This document shows, in pieces, positions 10,528-22,672 of a stretch of 64,000 bases of DNA. The DNA is from Parapedobacter pyrenivorans. Its GTDB lineage: Bacteria > Bacteroidota > Bacteroidia > Sphingobacteriales > Sphingobacteriaceae. How positions within the stretch are numbered: the first letter of the stretch is position 1; each line of letters opens with the position of its first letter. Location of the stretch: positions 1,600,718-1,664,717 of the forward strand of contig NZ_BMER01000001.1 in the NCBI RefSeq assembly GCF_014636865.1, in the 5' to 3' direction. Below the pieces are notes generated by a model that saw only the letters and a list, made by a program, of their open reading frames with translations, was not told where the DNA came from and searched no databases. The position numbers and the translations under genes were made by a program.

Positions 10528-13500
10528 ATGAGAAAACTAATACAATTCTCGATGATGATTGCGCTGAGTATTCCACTTTGGGCCTTTGGCTATGAAGCAA
10601 ATGGGGTGCTCGACCGTTCGGGAGCAGCGGGCGCCATCACAACCAGCTCGCTAGCCTTGGCGATGCAGCAAACGATCAGTGGGAAGGTTACCGGTACCGA
10701 CGGAGCACCGCTGCCCGGTGTCAGTGTATCCGTTGTCGGTGGTGCGGCCGCTACCAGTACCAACGAAGACGGCAATTATAGCATTTCGGCGCAAATGGGG
10801 GCAACCTTGCACTTCACGATGATTGGCTATACAGCAAAAGATGTAGCGGTCAATGCGGCGACGTTGAATGTCACCTTGGAGCCCGGAGACCGGAGCTTGG
10901 ACGAAGTGGTGGTAGTAGGTTATGGCACGCAACGCCGGGGTAACCTGACGGGCGCGGTTTCGACGATCAGTGTGAAGGAAAACCTCGAAGCGAGACCGAT
11001 AGCAGATGTAGGACGCGCGATTCAGGGGACAACGCCGGGATTAAGTGTAACACTTCCAAGCGGCGAGATAGGGTCTGATCCTGTGATCCGCATACGGGGG
11101 CAAATTGCTTCCATACAAGGGTTGGCACACGGGGGCACACAAACCCAGCCGTTGATTTTACTTGATAACGTCGAAATTCCGAGTATCACGCTTGTGAACC
11201 CCCTCGATGTAGAGTCCATCACGGTATTAAAAGATGCCGCCGCCTCTTCGATATACGGGGCAAAAGCCGCATTTGGCGTTGTTTTGATCACAACCAAGCA
11301 AGGTACCGGCATAGAAAAGCCTCAAATCACCTATTCTAATAACTTTTCTTTTCAAAACCCGTGGAAAGACCTACGGATGGCACGCCTGAATGGGTTGAAA
11401 TATTCGCTGGATGCCGTGGAACGGATCGGGGGCTCGCTTACGGGTGCTTTTTATAAAATCGATAGCGCAAGTTATGCGCGCGCAGCTGATTGGCACAATA
11501 CGTATGGCGGGACCATCGGAATGGACGATCCGACGGTATATGGCCGGGATTGGTACTTTGAACCAGGCGGGCCCTACAAGTTTGGATTGCGCACGTATGA
11601 TCCCTATGAAGCGATGGTGCGCGAATGGGCACCTACGCAACAACACAACTTGAGCATCGCTGGTACTTCCGGAAAGACTTCTTACAATCTTGGCTTGGGC
11701 TTGCTGGACCAAAGTGGGATGATGAAGCCGGCGAAGAAAGATCAATTCACGAGGTACAATGCATCATTGCGTGTATCCAGTGAAATCAATAAGTATTTTA
11801 CAGCGCGAGCAGGTGTGTTGTATTCTCAACGGAACAAAGAATACCCGTACGTGTCCAACTCGACCACGGCAGACCCTTGGCTCTATCTATTCAGGTGGAG
11901 TCCGATTTATCCGCTTGGCAATGACGAGAATGGCGACCCTATCCGCAGTCCGGCAAGCGAAGCAGCAGCGGCAAACACCGCAAGTTTGCTGTATAATTAT
12001 TTGAACCTGAATCTCGGCGGTACCGTGACCCTTACGGACAACTGGACGGTCGATTTCGACTATACCTATGCCAACCAAGGGCACGTTTGGGACCGACCGG
12101 GGACGAAGTACACCGCCCGCAACTCATGGGTGGCACCGCAGGCACGGGTTGATGCAGATGGTAATCCCGTTTACGTGAATTCGGCAGGGGAAGTGGTGTC
12201 AAGTACAACAGAGGGGGCAATGCCCGCCTATAACCTGGGACTGGAAACGTATACGGCGCCGGGGTCAAGCCCGGACCATATCTACAAGCTTTCTGAAAAT
12301 CTGAACAAACATACCATTAATGCCTTTACAACCTATAATCTAGGTCTGGAAGATGGTCATGACTTTAAGTTTATGCTGGGGATGAACCGGGTGACCGACG
12401 ACTGGGCCAACCATTTCACTCAGGTGACCAACCTCATCGATATTGTAAATCCGCAGTTCCCCTACGGCATCGGTACTTGGACAGGAGACGGCGGCGAATT
12501 CTGGGAGGCGCAATTGGGCTACTTCGGTCGCGTCAACTATGCGTATCAGAATAAATATCTGGTGGAGGCTAACCTGCGGTATGACGGTACCTCGAAATTC
12601 CCGACAGATTTGAAATGGCGTTGGTTCCCCTCATTCTCGGCTGGATGGGTACTGAGTGAAGAGGGTTTTATGGAAAGTACCCGGGACTGGCTGGATCTAT
12701 TTAAATTCCGGGGTTCTTGGGGTACGATAGGCGATCAGAGCGTGCCAAGCGACTTATATGTGCCCACTATGGATATCGGACAATCCACCTGGATCGGTGG
12801 GGATGGTTCTCGTTCATATTTTGTAGGTACCCCAAATGCCGTTGCGGCCGCCATCACCTGGCAGGATATCACCACCTTGGATTTCGGCGTGGATGCTAGG
12901 TTCTTCAACAACAAATTCGGATTTTCATTCGATTGGTACCAGCGTAATACCGAAAATATGATTGTTCCCGCGGAAGGTGTGCCGCCAACATTCGGTTCTG
13001 GTGCACCGGAAAGCAACTACGGGTCATTGCGCACCAGAGGGTGGGAGGTTGCGGTAGACTTCAACCATCGATTTGACAACGGTTTGGGTATAAACGTACG
13101 GGGGAATATCTCCGACGCGAAGTCGGTCGTCATGGAATATGGGTCAACACAGAGCGTAAACAATTATTATGTGGGGAAGACCTATGGCGAAATCTGGGGG
13201 TACCGTACGGATCGGCTGTATCAATACGATGACTTTGAGTTAGGGCCCGATGGTGAGCCACAACTGATTACACTGACCGAAGCGGAAAGTGCAAAATATG
13301 CGGGAAGGAAAGCCTATAAGCTCAAGCCGGGACCGAACGGCGAGAAGCCCGTTTATCAAGCCTTCCTGCAAAATAGTGCGGACTTTTATTTCGGGCCTGG
13401 CGATGTTAAATTCGTGGACTCTAATGGAGACGGCGAGCTGGATAATGGAAGCCAGCTTGTTGGCGATCACGGCGATTGGGATGTCATCGGTAACTTTACT

Positions 13501-14034
13501 CCGCGATATGAATATGGCTTCCGCTTAGGCGCCGATTACAAAGGCGTTGACTTCGCTGTCTTCTTCCAAGGTGTGGGCAGCCGTGAAGTTTGGGGCGGCG
13601 GCAATTTGGCAATTCCGGGATTCCACGCCTCAGATGGTGCCATGCCAGCGGCTATTGCGGATGATTATTGGACACCGGAAAATACCGATGCCTTCTATCC
13701 CGCAGCTTATAACAACGCAGGGAATAACACGAATAACAATATGCAACGACAATCAAGGTACTTGCTGGATATGTCTTATTTGCGTATCAAGAACATTTCG
13801 TTGGGTTATTCGTTACCGGCGTCGTTACTGAGCCGCGTAGGTGTCAATTCTCTGAGGGTCTATACATCGCTGGAGAATTTTGTTACCTGGGATAACCTGA
13901 ACGGCTTACCCATCGACCCTGAAGCTGTCGCCGGTTTCTCCATGTGGAACAATACCAACTACAATTCTAGTCGCACGGGTGTGGGAACCCCTGCATTCAA
14001 GAGTGTGTCCTTTGGTGTTCAATTGAACTTCTAA
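10528..14034 (+). CDS. SusC-family TonB-dependent outer-membrane transporter
   Basis: SusC/RagA-type transporter of 1168 residues. It has a signal region, a carboxypeptidase-like regulatory domain (ISGKVTGTDGAPLPGVSVSV), the hallmark LDEVVVVGYGTQ, a plug (AIQGTTPGLSV; LLDNVEIPS; GAKAAFGVVLITTKQG) and a beta-barrel ending in LNF. It is longer than the first SusC, from extended loops. It begins 57 nt after namZ and 11 nt before its SusD partner. Position between NamZ and the GH9/deacetylase/MurQ genes makes murein or amino-sugar oligomers its likely cargo (inference). Confidence 0.93.
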   Translation: MRKLIQFSMMIALSIPLWAFGYEANGVLDRSGAAGAITTSSLALAMQQTISGKVTGTDGAPLPGVSVSVVGGAAATSTNEDGNYSISAQMGATLHFTMIGYTAKDVAVNAATLNVTLEPGDRSLDEVVVVGYGTQRRGNLTGAVSTISVKENLEARPIADVGRAIQGTTPGLSVTLPSGEIGSDPVIRIRGQIASIQGLAHGGTQTQPLILLDNVEIPSITLVNPLDVESITVLKDAAASSIYGAKAAFGVVLITTKQGTGIEKPQITYSNNFSFQNPWKDLRMARLNGLKYSLDAVERIGGSLTGAFYKIDSASYARAADWHNTYGGTIGMDDPTVYGRDWYFEPGGPYKFGLRTYDPYEAMVREWAPTQQHNLSIAGTSGKTSYNLGLGLLDQSGMMKPAKKDQFTRYNASLRVSSEINKYFTARAGVLYSQRNKEYPYVSNSTTADPWLYLFRWSPIYPLGNDENGDPIRSPASEAAAANTASLLYNYLNLNLGGTVTLTDNWTVDFDYTYANQGHVWDRPGTKYTARNSWVAPQARVDADGNPVYVNSAGEVVSSTTEGAMPAYNLGLETYTAPGSSPDHIYKLSENLNKHTINAFTTYNLGLEDGHDFKFMLGMNRVTDDWANHFTQVTNLIDIVNPQFPYGIGTWTGDGGEFWEAQLGYFGRVNYAYQNKYLVEANLRYDGTSKFPTDLKWRWFPSFSAGWVLSEEGFMESTRDWLDLFKFRGSWGTIGDQSVPSDLYVPTMDIGQSTWIGGDGSRSYFVGTPNAVAAAITWQDITTLDFGVDARFFNNKFGFSFDWYQRNTENMIVPAEGVPPTFGSGAPESNYGSLRTRGWEVAVDFNHRFDNGLGINVRGNISDAKSVVMEYGSTQSVNNYYVGKTYGEIWGYRTDRLYQYDDFELGPDGEPQLITLTEAESAKYAGRKAYKLKPGPNGEKPVYQAFLQNSADFYFGPGDVKFVDSNGDGELDNGSQLVGDHGDWDVIGNFTPRYEYGFRLGADYKGVDFAVFFQGVGSREVWGGGNLAIPGFHASDGAMPAAIADDYWTPENTDAFYPAAYNNAGNNTNNNMQRQSRYLLDMSYLRIKNISLGYSLPASLLSRVGVNSLRVYTSLENFVTWDNLNGLPIDPEAVAGFSMWNNTNYNSSRTGVGTPAFKSVSFGVQLNF

Positions 14035-14045
14035 ACGTTAAAACG

Positions 14046-15893
14046 ATGAAATTTCCAACTAAATTCATATACAGTATTTGCGCGGCATCACTGTTGATCG
14101 CCGGATGCAACAAAGAGTTATTGGATCGGCCGCCGCTGACCGAACCTGTCGATGACAGTTTCTGGCGGAATGAGACGGATGTTAGGCTGTTCGCTAACGG
14201 CTTCTATTCGCAGTATTTTGTGGGCTACAATAGTGCATGGGGTGTCGATTATACACCGGTACGGGGTTATACCTTTTCGGATGATGTGACGAGCCGTAAC
14301 GTGCAAACGCATTTTGAAAACAGTGTGCCAGCAAGCCGAGCGCAAACCGCCGAAACTGGAGCGAACGCGCTGTGGCTAACCCAATATGCTGGCCCGTCCT
14401 GGAATTTTTCGTGGGTGCGTAAAGCCAATATTTTTATTGACCGGCTCGAGAATATTGCCCAAGCCAATTTAGAGGCCGATGCCTATAACCACTGGATGGC
14501 GGTGGCACGTTTCTTCCGAGGGTTCGAATATAGCCGTTTGGTGAGTGTATTTGGCAACGTGCCGTACTATGATCATGTATTAACCGATGATGCATGGGAT
14601 GAATTGTATAAAGACCGTGATGACCGTGGCGTAGTGATGGACGGGGTGTACGACGATTTCAAGTTCGTGATGGACAATATCCGCATTAACGATGGAAAGC
14701 AAATGCTAAACAAATATATCGCTGCTGCGTTTATCTCCCGGTTCATGCTGTTTGAGGGCACGTTCCAGCATTATCATGAGCTGGATGCTGAACGGGCGAA
14801 GAAATACCTTGAATTCGCCGTTGAGGCTGCAGCGTTTGCGATGAGCGGGCCCTATTCGTTTGAAAGTGATTTCAAGGGTCTCTTCGCTTCGGAGAGCCTG
14901 GATGGCAACCCGGAAGTGCTGATGTGGAGGACGTATGATGCCGCATTGGGAGTAACCCATCACATCGGCTCGTACAATAACGGTACGGAAGGACAACCAG
15001 CAGGCGCGAACCTCGAGTTTGTTAAGTCGTTTATTTGCAACGATGGCCGGGTATGGCAGCACTCAACGGTAGATGGCGCCTCCAGTTTTTCGATAACCGA
15101 CCTGGCGTTAACACGTGATCCCCGCTTTGAAGCAACCATATATGAAGATCCCCGCCCCGCATCGGCGTCTTTATTTTATACCTATAAATTTGCCTCGCGC
15201 GAGGCCATGACCTATATCGGACAAAGTTATCCGCCTGCCTGGGGAAGCAACACCAATACCAATGATGCACCGGTGATGCGGCTGGCCGAACCTGTACTGA
15301 ACTGGATTGAAGCCAAGGCAGTACTGGCCGAGTTTTTCGGTGGCCCTGCGGTAACTCAAGGCGACGTCGATGCGTCCATCAACGCGATCCGTGATCGACC
15401 ATTGGATGAGACCGCTATTGCGAAAGGGATACAGAAAACGGCACCATTGATGCTCGCCGCACTTCCGGACGATCCCGATCGCGATGCCGACGTGTCGGCA
15501 CTAATTTGGGAAATCCGCCGCGAGCGACGTATGGAGTTCTTCTATGAGCATACGCGGTTACTGGATATCAAACGGTGGGAGAAAATAGAGTACATGGATT
15601 TCAGTACCGACCCGGATTATTTCCTCGGCCCTTGGATAGCTGTTCAAGAGGACGCGCCGGTCCTCTTATCCGAAAGTAATGAAGGGGTGTTAAAAGTGCG
15701 AAAACAAGATGGAACTATTGTGACCTACAACGGCTCCAATGGAGCCGATATGGTTGGGTTCTACATGATCGAAAATGCCGCTAACCGCAATGAGTTCGGC
15801 AGTGAGGTTTACATGGCTCCAGTGGGTCAATCGCAAATCATCGATTATCAAGAACGAGGCTACACCTTAACCCAAACAGCAGGATGGAACTAG
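14046..15893 (+). CDS. SusD/RagB-family surface lipoprotein
   Basis: Classic SusD-type lipoprotein, 615 residues, partner of the SusC 11 nt upstream. It has the lipobox IAGC (LLIAGCNKELLDRPPL), an N-terminal helical region with WxxxY-type TPR-like elements (ARFFRGFEYSRLVSVFGNVPYYD), and the C-terminal SusD signature (IWEIRRERRMEFFYEHTRLLDIKRW). It should bind the glycan at the surface and hand it to the transporter. The gap to the next gene is about 40 nt, consistent with one operon. Confidence 0.93.
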   Translation: MKFPTKFIYSICAASLLIAGCNKELLDRPPLTEPVDDSFWRNETDVRLFANGFYSQYFVGYNSAWGVDYTPVRGYTFSDDVTSRNVQTHFENSVPASRAQTAETGANALWLTQYAGPSWNFSWVRKANIFIDRLENIAQANLEADAYNHWMAVARFFRGFEYSRLVSVFGNVPYYDHVLTDDAWDELYKDRDDRGVVMDGVYDDFKFVMDNIRINDGKQMLNKYIAAAFISRFMLFEGTFQHYHELDAERAKKYLEFAVEAAAFAMSGPYSFESDFKGLFASESLDGNPEVLMWRTYDAALGVTHHIGSYNNGTEGQPAGANLEFVKSFICNDGRVWQHSTVDGASSFSITDLALTRDPRFEATIYEDPRPASASLFYTYKFASREAMTYIGQSYPPAWGSNTNTNDAPVMRLAEPVLNWIEAKAVLAEFFGGPAVTQGDVDASINAIRDRPLDETAIAKGIQKTAPLMLAALPDDPDRDADVSALIWEIRRERRMEFFYEHTRLLDIKRWEKIEYMDFSTDPDYFLGPWIAVQEDAPVLLSESNEGVLKVRKQDGTIVTYNGSNGADMVGFYMIENAANRNEFGSEVYMAPVGQSQIIDYQERGYTLTQTAGWN

Positions 15894-15932: not shown

Positions 15933-18900
15933 ATGACGGATAGCACATGTTTAAGGTACTTATTAAAACCAATGGCGCTGCTGAAGGTGCTGGTGCTTAC
16001 CGCGTTCGCGGGGTATGCCCAGCCCTTCCAATTCGCGCACGTGACGGACACCCATGTGGGGAGCGCCACCGGTGCGGACGACCTGCGGCGGACAGTGGCT
16101 GACATCAATGCCAACCCGGATCTCCATTTCGTGATTTTGTCAGGAGATGTAACCGAATTCGGCTCGGATGAGGAGTTGCGGCTCGCGAAGCAAATTTTGG
16201 ATAGCCTGTTCATTCCGTGGTATGTCATTCCCGGCAACCACGATACCAATTGGTCCGAAAGCGGTGGCAACAGCTTCCGCAAAATATTCGGCGGTGAAAC
16301 CTTTGCCTTTGTACACAACGGTTACTTTTTCGTCGGTACCAATTCGGGTCCGAATATGCGGATGAGTCCGGGGCAGGTACCCCGTGAGAACCTGGTGTGG
16401 ATGGATTCGCTGTTCGCGGCACATCCGGATAAGGACATGCCGATCATCTACGTCAATCATTATCCGCAGGATTCCTCACTAAACAATTGGTTTGAAGCGT
16501 TAGACCGGGTGAAGACCCGCAATGTGCAGCTTTTTTTCTGTGGCCATGGCCATCAAAATAAGCAATACGAATTTGAAGGCATCCCCGGCATCATGGGGCG
16601 GTCCAATCTGCGGGCCAAAGACAGCGTTGGTGGCTATAACATCGTCACCATCGCCGACGGCCGGGCGTTATACCAAGAGCAGCATCCGGGCGCTGGTATG
16701 CAGGAACCTTGGGCCGTCATCCCGCTGCTCAACCATCGCTTTGCCGACGAAGCTCGTTTGTACGATCGACCCGACTATTCGCTAAATACGCGGCATGCCG
16801 CTGTACGGGGAGTGTGGTCCTTTCAGGATGCGAGCGATATTGGAGCTGGGTTGGCTACGTATAAGCAACTGGTCATTACCGCCAATACCGCCGGACAGGT
16901 CTATGCGCTCGATGAGCAGACGGGCCGGAAAGTTTGGTCGTTTCAAACGGGTGGGAAAGTGTATTCCACTCCTACGGTGTGGAAGCACTACGTGGTTGTC
17001 GGGTCTTCCGATGGACTTATCTATGGCTTACACGCCAAAACCGGCAAGCTGCTGTGGAAACATGCAGCGGAAAAGGCCGTACTGGGCTCCCCATTGGTGC
17101 ATAACGGTGTGGCTTACATCGGGGCTTCTGATGGCAGGTTCAGGGCGCTGGATATCAAATCCGGCCGCTTACGCTGGTCATTTGACGAGGTGAAAGGGTA
17201 TGTTTCCGGTAAACCATTGTTGTATGAAAATACGTTGTACTTCGGCTCGTGGGGCAATGGCTTCTATGCGATTGATCCGGCCGATGGGCACCTAAAGTGG
17301 CAATGGTCCAACGGAGCCTCCAGCCGGATGCTGTCGCCCGCGGCCTGCTATCCCGTGGGGGCGAATGGAAGGATATTCATCGTGGCGCCCGATCGGTATA
17401 TGACCGCGCTGGATGCTCGAAACGGTGCCGAAATCTGGCGTAAAAAAATCGATAGCGTACGCGTGCGTGAGTCGATGGGCCTCTCTGAGGACGGCACATT
17501 GGTCTACGTGAAAACCATGGATGGCCAGGTACTGGGCGTATCGACCACGGCAGACAGCATGCAGATCGCATGGAGATCCAAGCTGCAGTTGCCGTATGAA
17601 TTGACCCCTTCGGCTATCTCGGCCAACGACGGCCTGGTGTTTGTGCCGAGCCATTCGGGGTTGGTAAGCGGCCTGAATGCTGCCAGTGGCGATGTAGCGT
17701 GGCAGTATAAGCTATCTAACGCGATGGTTAACCCCATGCTGCCGCTACGGGGGCAGCGGTTGGTAGCAAGCACGATGGATGGGAAGGTGGTCTGCCTGGC
17801 ATACGGCGACCCGGAAGATCGGTCGTGGATTCGTGTCAACCAACTCGGCTATACGCCCCAGGGCATCAAAGTGGCGGTATGGGGTGGTAAAAGTACCAAG
17901 CGGATAGCTCGATTCCGGCTGGTCGAAGGCGAATCGGGCAAAGCGGTGTTTGCCGGAAAGGCGGGCAAGGATTTCGGGACCTATGGGCCGTTCCGATCGT
18001 CCTATCGACTGGATTTTTCTGCTTATGCGGATACCGGCACGTATTACCTGGAAGTGGACGGTGTTCGTTCACCGCAATTCCGTATTGCAAGTGATGTCTA
18101 TACAGGCGCTGCTGATTTTGCCCTGCGCTACATGCGCCAGCAACGTACCCTCTTTAATCCATTTTTGAAAGACAGTTGCCATACGCACGATGGCTTTACG
18201 CTGTACGCAGCGGGAGCCGGCCTGCCGGATAGTACGCGGATTGATGTGGGCGGTGGGTGGCATGATGCGTCTGACTATTTGCAGTATGCAACAACTTCTG
18301 CCAATGCGACCTATCATTTGCTGGCCGCTTACCGCGATTTTCCGGCTATTTTTGGCGACCATAAACAGGCCAATGGCTTGGATGGTAGCAATGGCATCGC
18401 CGATGTGCTCGACGAGGCCAGATGGGGATTGGATTGGTTGCTGAAGATGCATCCCGAGCCTCACCTGCTATTTAACCAGATTGCTGATGACCGGGACCAC
18501 GCGGGGATGCGTATGCCGGGTGAAGATGATTTTTACGGCCGGGGTTTCGAGCGTCCGGTATATTTTGTGAGCGGTGAGCCGCAGCAACGGGGGAAGTTCA
18601 TGAATAGCACCACTGGAACAAGCTCCACCGCCGCCAAATTTACCAGTGCGTTTAACTTGGGCAGCTTGCTTTTCGAGACCAAGGATACGACCTATGCGCA
18701 ACGGTTGCTGGAAAAGGCAAAGACGGCCTATGCTTTTGCAAAACGACGACCCGGTGTAACGCAGACGGCTTCGGTGAAGTCGCCGTATATCTATGCCGAA
18801 GACAATTGGGTGGATGATATGGAATTGGCTGCCGCAACCCAATGGGCAGCGACGGGCGATGCTGCCTTTTTACAGGAAGCGCTCGATTATGCCCGGCAGG

Positions 18901-19553
18901 AAACCGTGACACCCTGGATGGCGAACGATACGGCGGCGCATTACCAATGGTATCCATTTATCAACCTGGGGCACCGGGAGCTTGCTCGGCGAACGACGGG
19001 AGAGAAGCGAGAAGAAGTCATCGCTTATTATAAGGAAGGAATTGAGCAAGTGTGGGCAAGGGCCGAGCAGAATGCGTTTTACCGCGGAGTGCCCTTCATT
19101 TGGTGCAGCAATAACCTCACCGCGTCGTTTGCCATCCAATGCCTGTGGTACGAGCAGCTGACCAATGACGATACGTATGCTCAGCTCGTACAAGCCAATT
19201 TCGACTGGCTGTTTGGCTGTAATCCGTGGGGTACCAGCATGGTTTATGGCCTGCCGGCGTGGGGTGATACGCCTACCGATCCGCATTCGGCATTTACCCG
19301 GTTGGGAAATTATCCGATTGATGGTGGGCTGGTAGACGGCCCGGTGTACGGCAACATCTTCAATAGCCTGATTGGAATCCAGTTGACGAAGCCAGACGCG
19401 CATGCGCCCTTTCAATCGGATTTGGCGGTCTACCACGATGACTACGGCGACTACAGTACAAATGAGCCGACGATGGACGGTACGGCATCATTGATTTATT
19501 TGCTGGCGGCAAAAGAACAGGAGTCACGGGAGGTGGCTCAACCAAAAAAGTAG
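15933..19553 (+). CDS. Exported three-module protein: calcineurin-like phosphoesterase, PQQ-type beta-propeller, GH9 glycosidase
   Basis: A 1206-residue exported protein. After a signal peptide (ending GYAQ) comes a metallophosphoesterase with DTH (39-41), GDxxE, GNHD (101-104) and GHGH (204-207). A PQQ/BamB-like propeller follows (~290-630; repeats such as GQVYALDEQTGRKVWSF). Next is an Ig-like CelD_N domain (VNQLGY, ~635-720), then a GH9 catalytic domain with HDASD (catalytic Asp pair D778/D781), NPWGTSMVYG and the terminal motif with E1178. GH9 enzymes cleave beta-1,4-glucans, and some act on glucosamine oligomers, which would suit a murein or chitosan-like substrate (inference). ATG 15933 is chosen; a TTG at 15912 and an ATG at 15972 are alternatives. 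The stop lies directly after a slippery A-AAA-AAG and overlaps the deacetylase start. Confidence 0.88.
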   Translation: MTDSTCLRYLLKPMALLKVLVLTAFAGYAQPFQFAHVTDTHVGSATGADDLRRTVADINANPDLHFVILSGDVTEFGSDEELRLAKQILDSLFIPWYVIPGNHDTNWSESGGNSFRKIFGGETFAFVHNGYFFVGTNSGPNMRMSPGQVPRENLVWMDSLFAAHPDKDMPIIYVNHYPQDSSLNNWFEALDRVKTRNVQLFFCGHGHQNKQYEFEGIPGIMGRSNLRAKDSVGGYNIVTIADGRALYQEQHPGAGMQEPWAVIPLLNHRFADEARLYDRPDYSLNTRHAAVRGVWSFQDASDIGAGLATYKQLVITANTAGQVYALDEQTGRKVWSFQTGGKVYSTPTVWKHYVVVGSSDGLIYGLHAKTGKLLWKHAAEKAVLGSPLVHNGVAYIGASDGRFRALDIKSGRLRWSFDEVKGYVSGKPLLYENTLYFGSWGNGFYAIDPADGHLKWQWSNGASSRMLSPAACYPVGANGRIFIVAPDRYMTALDARNGAEIWRKKIDSVRVRESMGLSEDGTLVYVKTMDGQVLGVSTTADSMQIAWRSKLQLPYELTPSAISANDGLVFVPSHSGLVSGLNAASGDVAWQYKLSNAMVNPMLPLRGQRLVASTMDGKVVCLAYGDPEDRSWIRVNQLGYTPQGIKVAVWGGKSTKRIARFRLVEGESGKAVFAGKAGKDFGTYGPFRSSYRLDFSAYADTGTYYLEVDGVRSPQFRIASDVYTGAADFALRYMRQQRTLFNPFLKDSCHTHDGFTLYAAGAGLPDSTRIDVGGGWHDASDYLQYATTSANATYHLLAAYRDFPAIFGDHKQANGLDGSNGIADVLDEARWGLDWLLKMHPEPHLLFNQIADDRDHAGMRMPGEDDFYGRGFERPVYFVSGEPQQRGKFMNSTTGTSSTAAKFTSAFNLGSLLFETKDTTYAQRLLEKAKTAYAFAKRRPGVTQTASVKSPYIYAEDNWVDDMELAAATQWAATGDAAFLQEALDYARQETVTPWMANDTAAHYQWYPFINLGHRELARRTTGEKREEVIAYYKEGIEQVWARAEQNAFYRGVPFIWCSNNLTASFAIQCLWYEQLTNDDTYAQLVQANFDWLFGCNPWGTSMVYGLPAWGDTPTDPHSAFTRLGNYPIDGGLVDGPVYGNIFNSLIGIQLTKPDAHAPFQSDLAVYHDDYGDYSTNEPTMDGTASLIYLLAAKEQESREVAQPKK

Positions 19554-19590
19554 TGTACGATACCTATGGTTGTATCATCCGGGGTGATAC
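19528..19590 (+). promoter_or_regulatory. Candidate programmed -1 ribosomal frameshift site joining GH9 and deacetylase
   Basis: In the GH9 frame the last codons are CCA AAA AAG TAG, so the heptamer A-AAA-AAG (19544-19550) is in the canonical slippery phase. GGGAGG (19528-19533) lies exactly 10 nt upstream, the geometry of the SD-like stimulator in E. coli dnaX. Two mutually exclusive hairpins follow: GATAC/GTATC (19559-19563 with 19572-19576) and GTATCAT/GTGATAC (19572-19578 with 19584-19590). A -1 slip would replace the stop with GTA GTG and continue in the deacetylase frame. This is inference from sequence; an indel error in the A6 run is the rival explanation. Confidence 0.5.
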
Positions 19591-20254
19591 GACACAGCGT
19601 CAACTGGCGTTGGTGTTTACCGCGGATGAATATGGAGCCGGTGCTCCGTTTATTTTGGATGCTTTGAACGATGACCAGATCAAGGGATCTTTTTTCCTGA
19701 CGGGGAATTACCTCCGTGACGCGGGAAACGCAAAAGCAATAAAGCGGATGGTTGCCGATGGCCATTATCTTGGCCCGCATTCTGACAGGCACCTGCTTTA
19801 TTGCGACTGGGAAAATCGAGACAGCTTGCTAGTGAGCAGGGAGGTCTTTGATGCAGATTTGAGGGCAAATTATACCGAAATGGCCAAGTGGGGGATTGAC
19901 AGATCGGAAGCATTATTTTTCATGCCGCCATACGAATGGTACAACCGCCGTATTGTGGAGTGGACCGAAGAGCAAGGAGGGCAGTTGGTCAATTTTACGC
20001 CCGGCTTGCGTACGGCGGCGGATTATACCTATCCCGAAATGGGTGATCGGTATATGGATTCGGGTAAGCTCTATGAACAGTTGCTGGCTTACGAAGCGCA
20101 ACACCCTAGCGGGTTGAACGGATTTATCGTACTGATACACTTGGGCACAGACCCAAGGAGAATGGATAAGTTTTACCATCGATTACCCGAATTGATTGAG
20201 ACATTGACGTTAAAGGGCTACGTGTTTAAACGGATAGATAAATTATTTCAGTAA
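19553..20254 (+). CDS. Polysaccharide deacetylase (NodB/CE4-like)
   Basis: NodB-homology deacetylase domain of 233 residues. Recognisable blocks are FTADEY (23-27; usual form TFDDG, so the base Asp is kept at D25 and the metal Asp is replaced by E26), GSFFLTGNYLRD, the metal motif HSDRH (76-80) and FFMPPYEWY (for RxPxY). Members remove N-acetyl groups from chitin-like or murein glycans. No signal peptide is present, and the only start is a GTG overlapping the GH9 stop (TAGTG) with no ATG near the domain start. Either it is translated by coupling and remains cytoplasmic, or it is made as a C-terminal extension of the exported GH9 protein through a -1 frameshift. It is followed after 97 nt by murQ. 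Confidence 0.85.
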   Translation: MYDTYGCIIRGDTTQRQLALVFTADEYGAGAPFILDALNDDQIKGSFFLTGNYLRDAGNAKAIKRMVADGHYLGPHSDRHLLYCDWENRDSLLVSREVFDADLRANYTEMAKWGIDRSEALFFMPPYEWYNRRIVEWTEEQGGQLVNFTPGLRTAADYTYPEMGDRYMDSGKLYEQLLAYEAQHPSGLNGFIVLIHLGTDPRRMDKFYHRLPELIETLTLKGYVFKRIDKLFQ

Positions 20255-20351: not shown

Positions 20352-21167
20352 ATGACAAATACGACGGAGAAAGAATCGAATTACCAGAATTTGGATAAGA
20401 TGTCTGTGGGTGAATTATTGGGAAATATCAATAACGAAGACCAGACGGTTGCCATCGCCGTACAGCAGGCTATCCCGCAGATTGAGCGCCTTATTGAAGC
20501 TACCGTTGCCTCGATGAAGGAGGGTGGACGGTTGTTTTATATCGGTGCCGGTACGAGTGGCCGATTGGGGATTTTGGACGCATCGGAGTGCCCGCCTACA
20601 TTCGGCATACCTTACGACTGGATCATTGGTATCATCGCGGGTGGCGATACTGCCATACGGAAAGCAGTGGAGTTTGCGGAGGACGATGAGAAGCAGGCTT
20701 GGATCGATTTGCAGGAACATGGTATCAACAGCAAGGACGTGGTGGTAGGTATCGCTGCTTCTGGGGGTACCCCGTATGTGAGAGGAGCATTAAAACAAGC
20801 GAACGCCGCTGGGCTGGTGACCGGATGCATTGTATGCAATGCCCATACAACCATTGCCGCCGAGGCTACTTATCCCATTGAGGTCATTGTAGGCCCCGAG
20901 TTCGTCACCGGATCTACCCGCATGAAGGCCGGTACTGCTCAAAAGCTGGTGCTCAATATGCTTAGCACGGCGGTAATGATTCAGTTGGGCCGTGTAAAGG
21001 GAAATAAGATGGTGGATATGCAGCTGACCAACAACAAGTTGTTCAGTCGGGGTATCCGTATTATTATGGAAGAAACGGGTATCGATGCGCAATCTGCCTC
21101 AGATCTGCTCGAAAAATACGGCAGCGTACGCAAGGCTATCGAAAACTCGCGTGTAGCGGACCATTAA
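20352..21167 (+). CDS. murQ: N-acetylmuramic acid 6-phosphate etherase
   Basis: Cytoplasmic etherase that splits MurNAc-6-phosphate into GlcNAc-6-phosphate and D-lactate. The 271 residues match the family throughout: SIS-domain phosphosugar site (FYIGAGTSGRLGILDASECPPTFG, quoted as GAGTSGRLG and SECPPTFG), VGIAASGGTPYV, and GPEFVTGSTRMKAGTAQK. The catalytic Glu is in SECPPTF. Length is typical, and the C-terminal UBA-like helices are present. It lies 11 nt upstream of a symporter. With namZ at the head of the same operon this fixes the pathway as MurNAc catabolism. A MurNAc kinase is not present in this window. Confidence 0.95.
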   Translation: MTNTTEKESNYQNLDKMSVGELLGNINNEDQTVAIAVQQAIPQIERLIEATVASMKEGGRLFYIGAGTSGRLGILDASECPPTFGIPYDWIIGIIAGGDTAIRKAVEFAEDDEKQAWIDLQEHGINSKDVVVGIAASGGTPYVRGALKQANAAGLVTGCIVCNAHTTIAAEATYPIEVIVGPEFVTGSTRMKAGTAQKLVLNMLSTAVMIQLGRVKGNKMVDMQLTNNKLFSRGIRIIMEETGIDAQSASDLLEKYGSVRKAIENSRVADH

Positions 21168-21178
21168 TTTGAAACTGC

Positions 21179-22672
21179 ATGACACCTACCGTTCTTCTTC
21201 TCTTTTTGGTGGTCTATTTTAGCCTGCTACTTGGCGTAGCGTATCTCACTTCACGCAAATCGGCAGATAATGCGACGTTTTTCGTGGCCAACCGAAATGC
21301 CAAATGGTACATGGTGGCCTTCGGCATGATCGGTACAGCATTATCGGGGGTTACGTTCATTTCGGTGCCAGGGGCCGTCGGGAATAGTGATTTCGGCTAT
21401 TTTCAGTTCATCCTGGGTAATGCGGTTGGCTTTATCATTATTGCCTATGTGCTGTTGCCCTTGTACTACCGGATGAACCTCACTTCCATCTATACGTACC
21501 TGGAGGAGCGCTTGGGACACCGGAGCTACAAAACGGGCGCAATGATATTTTTAATATCGCGTACCATCGGATCGGCATTCCGGCTCTATCTGGTGGCTAT
21601 CATTTTGCAGTGGTTTATCTTCGACGCCTGGAACATACCCTTTGCGGTCACCATCGCGTTGTGCCTAGTGCTGATTTGGCTTTATACCAATAAAGGAGGG
21701 CTGAAAACCATCATCATTACCGATATGATGCAGACTTTCTTTCTAGTATTGGCGGTCGTCCTATCCATTTATTTCATGGCGGATAGCTTGGGCCTTGGTT
21801 TCATGGAAACCATGGAAACGGTGAAGGAAAGCAGTTACTCCAAGATTTTCTTTTGGGAAGATATGCTTGGCGACCGGATCCATTTTTGGAAACACTTCCT
21901 CGGGGGTATATTCGTGACCGTGGCGATGACGGGATTGGATCAGGATCTGATGCAGAAAAACCTGAGTATGAAGACCATCGGCGAGGCGCAGAAGAATATG
22001 CTCACGTTTACGGGCATTTTCGTGGTCATCAACCTCTTTTTCCTATCGGTAGGCGCCTTGCTGTACATCTACGCCGGCCAGAAGGGGATAAACCTGGCCA
22101 ATTTACCCACGCCGGATTACCTGTACCCCGAGATTGCACTCCACCACCTGGCCATTGTGCCCGGAATCGTATTTATGATGGGGCTCACCGCCGCCACGTT
22201 TGCCACGACCGACTCGGCATTGACGGCGCTCACTACCTCGTTCTGTGTCGATTTCCTCAACTTCAATAAGAAAGCCGATCCCCATGATCGCGCACTGGTG
22301 CGCACGCGGAACAGGGTACACTTCGGTTTTTCGATTGTCATGATGCTGGTCGTCCTGGTGTTCCGGATTATTAACAACGATTCGGTGGTCACCGCGATTT
22401 TCACCGCCGCCAGCTATACGTACGGACCGTTGCTGGGGCTCTTTGCCTTCGGTATCCTTACCAAACTGCCGGTGGCCGACCGCCTGGTGCCCTATATCTG
22501 CGTATTATCACCTGTATTGTGCTATGCGCTCAATACATACGTGGTGATACCCTATACGGCGTATGCTGTGGGTTTTGAGCTGATTATCTACAACGGACTG
22601 CTCACCTGGTTGATGCTATGGGCCACTTCTTTTTCTGCCGCTAAGCCTGTCGGAGTACTAGGAGAAAAGTAA
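21179..22672 (+). CDS. Sodium:solute symporter (SSS family), candidate MurNAc/amino-sugar transporter
   Basis: Inner-membrane symporter of 497 residues with about 13 hydrophobic helices. Family hallmarks include the N-terminal FFVANRNAKWYMVAFGMIGTALSG region, a TM with GLDQDLMQKNLS, and GLTAATFATTDSALTALTTSFCVD (quoted in part). SSS proteins import sugars, sialic acid, amino acids or inositol with Na+. As last gene of the namZ-murQ operon it is the natural candidate for carrying MurNAc or its oligomers into the cytoplasm, comparable in role to the transporter of the Tannerella murTKQ operon. The substrate assignment is inference from context only. A strong terminator follows 13 nt after the stop. 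Confidence 0.88.
   Translation: MTPTVLLLFLVVYFSLLLGVAYLTSRKSADNATFFVANRNAKWYMVAFGMIGTALSGVTFISVPGAVGNSDFGYFQFILGNAVGFIIIAYVLLPLYYRMNLTSIYTYLEERLGHRSYKTGAMIFLISRTIGSAFRLYLVAIILQWFIFDAWNIPFAVTIALCLVLIWLYTNKGGLKTIIITDMMQTFFLVLAVVLSIYFMADSLGLGFMETMETVKESSYSKIFFWEDMLGDRIHFWKHFLGGIFVTVAMTGLDQDLMQKNLSMKTIGEAQKNMLTFTGIFVVINLFFLSVGALLYIYAGQKGINLANLPTPDYLYPEIALHHLAIVPGIVFMMGLTAATFATTDSALTALTTSFCVDFLNFNKKADPHDRALVRTRNRVHFGFSIVMMLVVLVFRIINNDSVVTAIFTAASYTYGPLLGLFAFGILTKLPVADRLVPYICVLSPVLCYALNTYVVIPYTAYAVGFELIIYNGLLTWLMLWATSFSAAKPVGVLGEK

Follow-up and report, generated by a model that had tools for sequence, protein, structure and literature searches.

To our knowledge, few bacterial cellular genes make two proteins via −1 ribosomal frameshifting. 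In E. coli dnaX, an SD-like stretch lies ~10 nt upstream of the slip site and a stem-loop lies a few nt downstream of it, and in Bacillus cdd a stop codon directly follows the site, with an SD upstream. The dnaX site is A_AAA_AAG and gives two products (tau and gamma) with a common N-terminal part; in a few bacteria, a zero-frame stop directly follows this site (PMC5009743). At the A_AAG sites of Bacillus cdd and IS1222, a −1 slip at CGA_AAG leads to an extended deaminase or transposase, and the cdd frameshift is called incidental in the same review (PMC5009743). A glycoside hydrolase, an archaeal alpha-L-fucosidase, is expressed only through a −1 slip that makes the functional full-length hydrolase (PMC8037382). 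In Bacteroidia, prfB (RF2) combines an SD-like stimulator with a zero-frame stop; such frameshifting is reported for every member of the Sphingobacteriales that was analysed, even though the anti-SD is occluded in Bacteroidia ribosomes and SD sequences generally go unrecognised by them (PMC8710568).

Here we examine a junction within a stretch of 64,000 nucleotides from Parapedobacter pyrenivorans (the window), at which a frame ending in a GH9 enzyme gives way to a polysaccharide deacetylase in the −1 frame. We judge, with a probability of about 0.9, that ribosomes undergo conserved, programmed −1 frameshifting at this junction, which would give a short GH9 form and a long GH9–deacetylase form; the anatomy and its conservation are read from the sequences, whereas slippage and its rate, SD–16S pairing at this site, export and what each form does are inferred. 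The junction shares with dnaX the A_AAA_AAG site, an SD-like stretch ~10 nt upstream, the two predicted products with a common N-terminal part and, with the dnaX of a few bacteria, the adjacent zero-frame stop. It differs from dnaX in lying in another gene, for exported carbohydrate enzymes, where the slip would add a domain, whereas the slip in E. coli dnaX truncates; it also differs in the presence of tRNA-Lys(CUU), in an SD that often lies in a hairpin loop, and in the many relatives that are fused or carry an A10 run. As in prfB, an SD-like stretch stands by a zero-frame stop in a class whose ribosomes have an occluded anti-SD; however, prfB is an autoregulatory release factor gene with a +1 shift and short SD spacing. 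Compared with this junction, the Bacillus cdd and IS1222 sites are of a weaker type and add no enzyme domain, and the archaeal fucosidase depends on its slip, whereas the GH9 enzyme here is complete without one.

In searches of an open-access library of papers, no earlier description of a GH9/deacetylase frameshift site was found; the words deacetylase, Pedobacter and cellulase are absent from the main text of the GeneTack survey (PMC3711429), as are deacetylase and cellulase from the first 300,000 of the 475,107 characters of the recoding review (PMC5009743). If our reading is correct, the junction would be a widely conserved case of −1 frameshifting in another phylum and in an exported enzyme, and its relatives would offer natural experiments with a slip site, an A10 run or an in-frame fusion. 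It would also be a second SD-driven recoding site beside prfB and, as such, a probe of the use of an occluded anti-SD in elongation.

Junction and gene context in the window

The last codons of the GH9 frame read GAG GTG GCT CAA CCA AAA AAG TAG, with the A6G heptamer in the exact slippery phase directly before the stop codon and with exactly 10 nt between GGGAGG and the A run (Table 1), both as an earlier note on this DNA had stated. It can also be read directly that a slip of one base back would bypass the TAG and enter the deacetylase frame at GTA 19550, giving ...P K K V V Y D.... The first possible deacetylase start is GTG 19553, which overlaps the GH9 stop (TAGTG), and the deacetylase frame in the window has no signal-like N-terminus; on these points too the earlier note was accurate. 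In the first frame, Pfam recognises Metallophos, a PQQ propeller, CelD_N and GH9, and in the second Polysacc_deac_1 (PF01522 at 43.8 bits, against a cut-off of 23.1). The short form would comprise 1206 aa from ATG 15933; the list of open reading frames opens the same frame at TTG 15912.

Table 1. Features at and around the GH9–deacetylase junction, in window coordinates.
Feature	Coordinates	Strand	Basis or remark
SusC/SusD pair, directly 5' of the GH9 ORF	10528..15893 (10528-14034, 14046-15893)	+	Pfam
Zero-frame ORF: signal-like start, metallophosphoesterase, PQQ-type propeller, CelD_N, GH9	15933..19553	+	Pfam; ends AAA AAG TAG
5' arm (GAGUCA) of hairpin with SD in loop	19521..19526	+	Fixed-register covariation; moderate support
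SD-like GGGAGG, 10 nt to A run	19528..19533	+	Complementary to 16S tail ACCTCCTTT
3' arm (UGGCUC) of hairpin with SD in loop	19534..19539	+	Fixed-register covariation; moderate support
Slippery heptamer A_AAA_AAG, zero-frame phase	19544..19550	+	Direct reading and comparison of loci
Zero-frame stop TAG, immediately 3' of heptamer	19551..19553	+	Direct reading
−1-frame polysaccharide deacetylase, NodB/CE4 type	19553..20254	+	First possible start GTG 19553; Pfam
Candidate downstream hairpin	19567..19596	+	Best fold, z −1.72; conservation in this lineage not shown
MurQ, N-acetylmuramic acid 6-phosphate etherase	20352..21167	+	3' of deacetylase
Sodium:solute symporter	21179..22672	+	Same strand as deacetylase

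In the window, the metallophosphoesterase–propeller part (15933-17800) precedes GH9 in one fused frame, and P. composti apparently has the same fusion (L057, a frame of 1216 aa); the GH9 frame of P. tibetensis (L056) is without this part and comprises 615 aa with a lipoprotein-like start.

The closest solved relative of the deacetylase by sequence is PdaA (1ny1, E 2e-9), which is also its best NCBIfam match, but far under the cut-off (58.8 of 298 bits). Across 139 loci, each histidine of the HxxxH metal motif (H76 and H80) is conserved at a level of 97% or more. Counted over the 20 commonest forms, the metal-binding Asp of motif 1 is D in at least 90 of these loci, including the window, and H in at least 37. 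The latter exchange (residue 25, FTGHDLSE type) is an unusual change at a metal site. Because the deacetylase is PdaA-like and has MurQ and the symporter as neighbors, the gene context suggests that the substrate may be peptidoglycan or another N-acetylated glycan.

A murQ gene lies within 1.6 kb downstream at 50 of 67 loci with the deacetylase in −1, vs 18 of 73 fused loci, as would be expected if the slip served mainly to alter the distance that ribosomes cover, and so the polarity on murQ and the symporter, with the fusion protein as a secondary effect. We regard this as very unlikely, given the conservation of the deacetylase and the lack of a murQ within 1.6 kb at 17 of the 67 −1 loci; the murQ association is, moreover, uncorrected for ancestry or for short flanks.

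Frame relation and site conservation among relatives

The earlier note had proposed aligning homologous loci as a check on the frameshift. Of 399 genomes from the family Sphingobacteriaceae, 144 contain a match to the deacetylase at E ≤ 1e-30; the loci of all of these but G178, G405 and G399 were examined, 141 in total. Relative to GH9, the deacetylase is fused in frame at 73 loci, lies in −1 at 67 and in +1 at none; at the remaining locus (L010, from the genus of the window) there is no GH9 within 600 nt and the deacetylase has its own hydrophobic start. The 67 −1 loci divide into 51 with A_AAA_AAG in phase, 14 with A10, one with A9 and one irregular (L024), and counts given out of 66 leave out the last. 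The in-phase heptamer spans eight genera (g1, g4, g12, g13, g15, g16, g20, and g21). The alignment therefore yielded both of the arrangements that the note had looked for, namely in-frame fusions and a retained −1 relation with the heptamer. L024, found in a single species, has its deacetylase domain split between two frames, through either an error or a real break, and L086 looks similar.

Beyond the family, a class-level sample of 395 genomes gave 19 matches and 12 new loci: seven are fused, three are without GH9 within 600 nt, one (L198) has the deacetylase in −1 with A10, and one (L200) is a separate gene. Among 32 loci from named records, 11 are fused, 15 are without GH9 and four are in −1 (L056, L057, L079, and L087); the remaining two lie in the other frame: L081 is a separate gene whose start is hydrophobic, and L086 is broken within the deacetylase. 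Standard gene callers would probably split −1 loci such as the 67 of 141 found here, or label them as pseudogenes.

All 49 sites with a plain A6 run have a G next, in phase, and all 49 have an SD-like match (GGAG, GAGG or GGGG in its weakest form) 9–13 nt upstream, so that the SD-like motif has been kept beside the heptamer in homologues, as the note had supposed it might be. GGAGG is contained in 42 of these sites, and the spacing from the SD to the A run is 10 nt in 42, 13 nt in five, 9 nt in one and 11 nt in one. The linkers of A6G loci have an SD-type duplex energy of −9.9 kcal/mol vs −5.1 kcal/mol for the 73 fused loci (p 2e-16, kinship uncorrected). The heptamer itself is above chance at the junction, where it is present in 51 of 66 −1 loci vs 16 in-phase occurrences in 72,281 codons of GH9 bodies (139 loci); in the linkers of the 73 fused loci it occurs in phase once (L021, within an A11 run).

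The A6 run recurs in the same phase at 49 loci of eight genera, and for this reason is not a sequencing error. Error or decay, by which the deacetylase would be a pseudogene or the true run A7, has a negligible probability in our assessment: L048 and L088 are indeed fused in frame by an A7 run, but the deacetylase is under purifying selection in the pairs tested, with dN < dS in 8 of 8 pairs and with dN of 0.16–0.20 vs dS of at least 1.6 among three loci of the genus Parapedobacter. Error, decay and plain tandem genes are thus rejected on the frame relation, the conservation of the site, the missing starts (see below) and dN < dS.

A zero-frame stop immediately follows the heptamer at 46 of the 49 plain-A6 sites (48 of 51 counting A7). 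Because three heptamer sites (L008, L014, and L089) have a later zero-frame stop, the comparison suggests that the adjacent stop would be a helper of the proposed frameshift and not a requirement. Stops at the 66 −1 loci are TAA at 37, TAG at 28 and TGA at one, vs TGA in 95 of 399 open reading frames of the window's own genome; TGA seems to be avoided at these stops, in counts uncorrected for ancestry. Over the last 12 codons of the three Parapedobacter loci, 10/11, 8/10 and 8/9 of same-residue codons are identical, which is only suggestive of synonymous conservation at the site in this genus, given that earlier codon windows reach 9/11.

The composite pattern GGAGG-N10-AAAAAAGTAR has 58 matches in the 399 family genomes, 37 at this junction by coordinates and 21 elsewhere. 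The reversed pattern, as a control, has 27 matches in the same genomes (counted by hand), and since the 21 matches elsewhere compare with these 27, no second gene family with the same motif stood out in the 399 genomes. With a spacer of 6–14 nt, the composite motif has a single occurrence in the own genome, at this junction.

Ribosome, tRNA and RNA structure

In the proposed frameshift, a ribosome ending the GH9 frame would arrive at CCA AAA AAG UAG while the 3' tail of its 16S rRNA pairs with GGGAGG 10 nt upstream. The SD pairing and the adjacent stop would allow both lysyl-tRNAs to shift one base back, from AAA AAG onto AAA AAA, and a fraction of ribosomes would continue via GUA GUG UAC in the deacetylase frame. 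Normal termination would yield a short exported enzyme, and slippage a long exported GH9–deacetylase of ~1440 aa in the window. The own 16S, with the tail taken from loci beside tRNA-Ile, ends in TACCTCCTTTCT and keeps CCTCC. The same genome encodes an RF2-like protein, in a gene that we take to be prfB, with an SD-type +1 frameshift site AGGAGG-CAC-CTT-TGA-C beyond which the RF2-like frame continues in +1 (L300, G000:C1:585719-585734).

The own genome encodes tRNA-Lys(CUU) (L214) alongside tRNA-Lys(UUU), so that AAG is not left to tRNA-Lys(UUU) alone, unlike in E. coli; tRNA-Lys(CUU) should read AAG with less slippage. Of 17 other genomes tested, 13 have a confirmed tRNA-Lys(CUU), and in G028, G044, G020 and G250 the best match is another tRNA, which is not proof of absence there. 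In-phase A_AAA_AAG is not avoided in 399 open reading frames of the own genome (19 seen vs 22.2 expected), and for this reason the heptamer by itself is probably weak. The likeness to dnaX that had been claimed for this site therefore holds for the heptamer, the SD and the conserved −1 frame, but not for the tRNA complement or for a genome-wide avoidance of the heptamer.

In the window, the SD-like stretch lies in the loop of a potential hairpin (GAGUCA-CGGGAGG-UGGCUC), in a register that is fixed across loci. In an alignment of 20 chosen rows (A1), 76.7% of cells pair vs at most 43.3% in slid registers, and covariation is 0.451 vs at most 0.104. These rows were picked after the hairpin had been seen, and 32 of 52 rows were left out: L014, L015, L018, L054, L095 and L128, which pair poorly in that register, five loci with 13-nt spacing, the A9 locus L115, and 20 rows of g16 that resemble those kept. 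Because A1 was selected post hoc, all 46 loci with a spacing of 10 (41 distinct) were counted as well, and here 63.4% of cells pair vs at most 45.1%, with covariation of 0.261 vs at most 0.169 in ten other registers. Against synonymous shuffles, the stems of 31 chosen loci score 4.53 vs 3.41 (Wilcoxon p 5e-7, kinship uncorrected), and 7 of the 31 reach p < 0.05 when taken singly. Two of five pair measures on A1 are not above shuffles (double-change pairs, 90/500; further pair types, 89/500), RNAalifold retains only three pairs, and no difference from fused loci in folding energy is seen over this stretch (p 0.17). Taken together, these results give moderate support to a putative upstream hairpin whose loop contains the SD.

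Downstream of the site, 36 chosen loci have a mean folding z of −1.00 vs −0.24 for the 73 fused loci (p 0.0035). In five g13 loci, the SD at 13 nt is accompanied by a downstream stem ~5 nt after the site (GCCUC/GAGGC or GCCCC/GGGGC type, read by eye); elsewhere such stems are irregular. For the window, the earlier note had placed hairpins from 8 nt downstream of the heptamer; the best fold there is a possible hairpin (Table 1) positioned further off.

A more far-reaching version, which we put forward as tentative and unlikely, is that the hidden anti-SD of Bacteroidota acts on the elongating message, with the SD displayed in a short hairpin loop. The share of products with the deacetylase tail, and with it the GH9/deacetylase ratio, would then be under regulation through the state of the anti-SD (e.g. 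bS21 content) or the supply of release factors, and neighboring lineages would reach the same two-product output by A10 or give it up by in-frame fusion.

Starts, probable export and apparent exchange of junction states

The overlap of TAG and GTG in the window, with GGGAGG upstream, makes reinitiation formally possible there: by translational coupling, ribosomes would stop at TAG and restart at the GTG with GGGAGG as SD, giving two proteins. Some potential start is present before the deacetylase core at 10 of the 66 −1 loci (GTG or TTG only at nine, an ATG at one). However, the other 56 have no ATG, GTG or TTG between the opening of the frame and the core, and reinitiation at GTG is ruled out by these loci as a general account. 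Coupling would also need no conservation of the heptamer and its phase, and would release a separate deacetylase without a signal-like start, in contrast to the unjoined deacetylases described below; we give it only a very slim chance.

A frameshifted deacetylase would instead share the signal-like start of the GH9 frame. The 21 deacetylases without a joined GH9 (L010; 15 of the 32 named loci, and L081; and L190, L191, L194, and L200) have a hydrophobic, signal-like N-terminus, with best 12-residue hydropathy of 1.67–3.32. The corresponding value is at most 1.6 for the 57 −1-frame loci that have at least 12 residues of open frame, drawn from 69 −1 loci (66 from the family plus L079, L087, and L198); signal-like starts were judged in both sets by this hydropathy alone. 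Because the unjoined deacetylases have a hydrophobic start and those in the −1 frame do not, fusion is the likely route to export for the frameshifted deacetylase.

The fusion could also arise if RNA polymerase slipped on the A run and the altered mRNAs were translated normally. Transcriptional slippage in bacteria on runs of nine A or T is described in the recoding review (PMC5009743), and this explanation is likely for the 14 A10 loci, which have SD-type energies of −0.1 to −6.8 kcal/mol vs an A6 mean of −9.8 kcal/mol; a toggling run is also suggested by the sisters L151 (A10) and L021 (A11). A run of A6 is short for polymerase slippage, however, and such slippage would not account for the fixed G and codon phase of the A6G loci or for their SD-like stretch at 10-nt spacing; for the window we hold it to be highly improbable. 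The A6G and long-run kinds are not sharply divided, as L115, with an A9 run, also has a strong SD-like stretch (−11.8).

The distribution of states was traced on a maximum-likelihood tree, built quickly from 139 loci and with SH-aLRT support only. The A6G state is scattered among deep lineages and requires 10 parsimony changes, of which at least seven are forced by supported branches. The A10 loci require four changes, and all 14 are in genus g16 (L022, L043, L127, L130, L131, L134, L135, L139, L140, L146, L150, L151, L153, and L172). Of the close sisters, L151 (A10) has the deacetylase in −1 and L021 (A11) has it in frame, although a homopolymer sequencing error is possible in one A10/A11 case; L048 and L088 retain the SD beside A7. 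Judging from these sister and A7 loci, a single-base change seems enough to convert a two-product junction into a one-product junction or the reverse. Beyond the family, L087 and L198 (A10) and L079 (A9) all have the deacetylase in −1, and from their runs the A9 (L079) and A10 junctions are probable polymerase-slippage counterparts of the A6G site.
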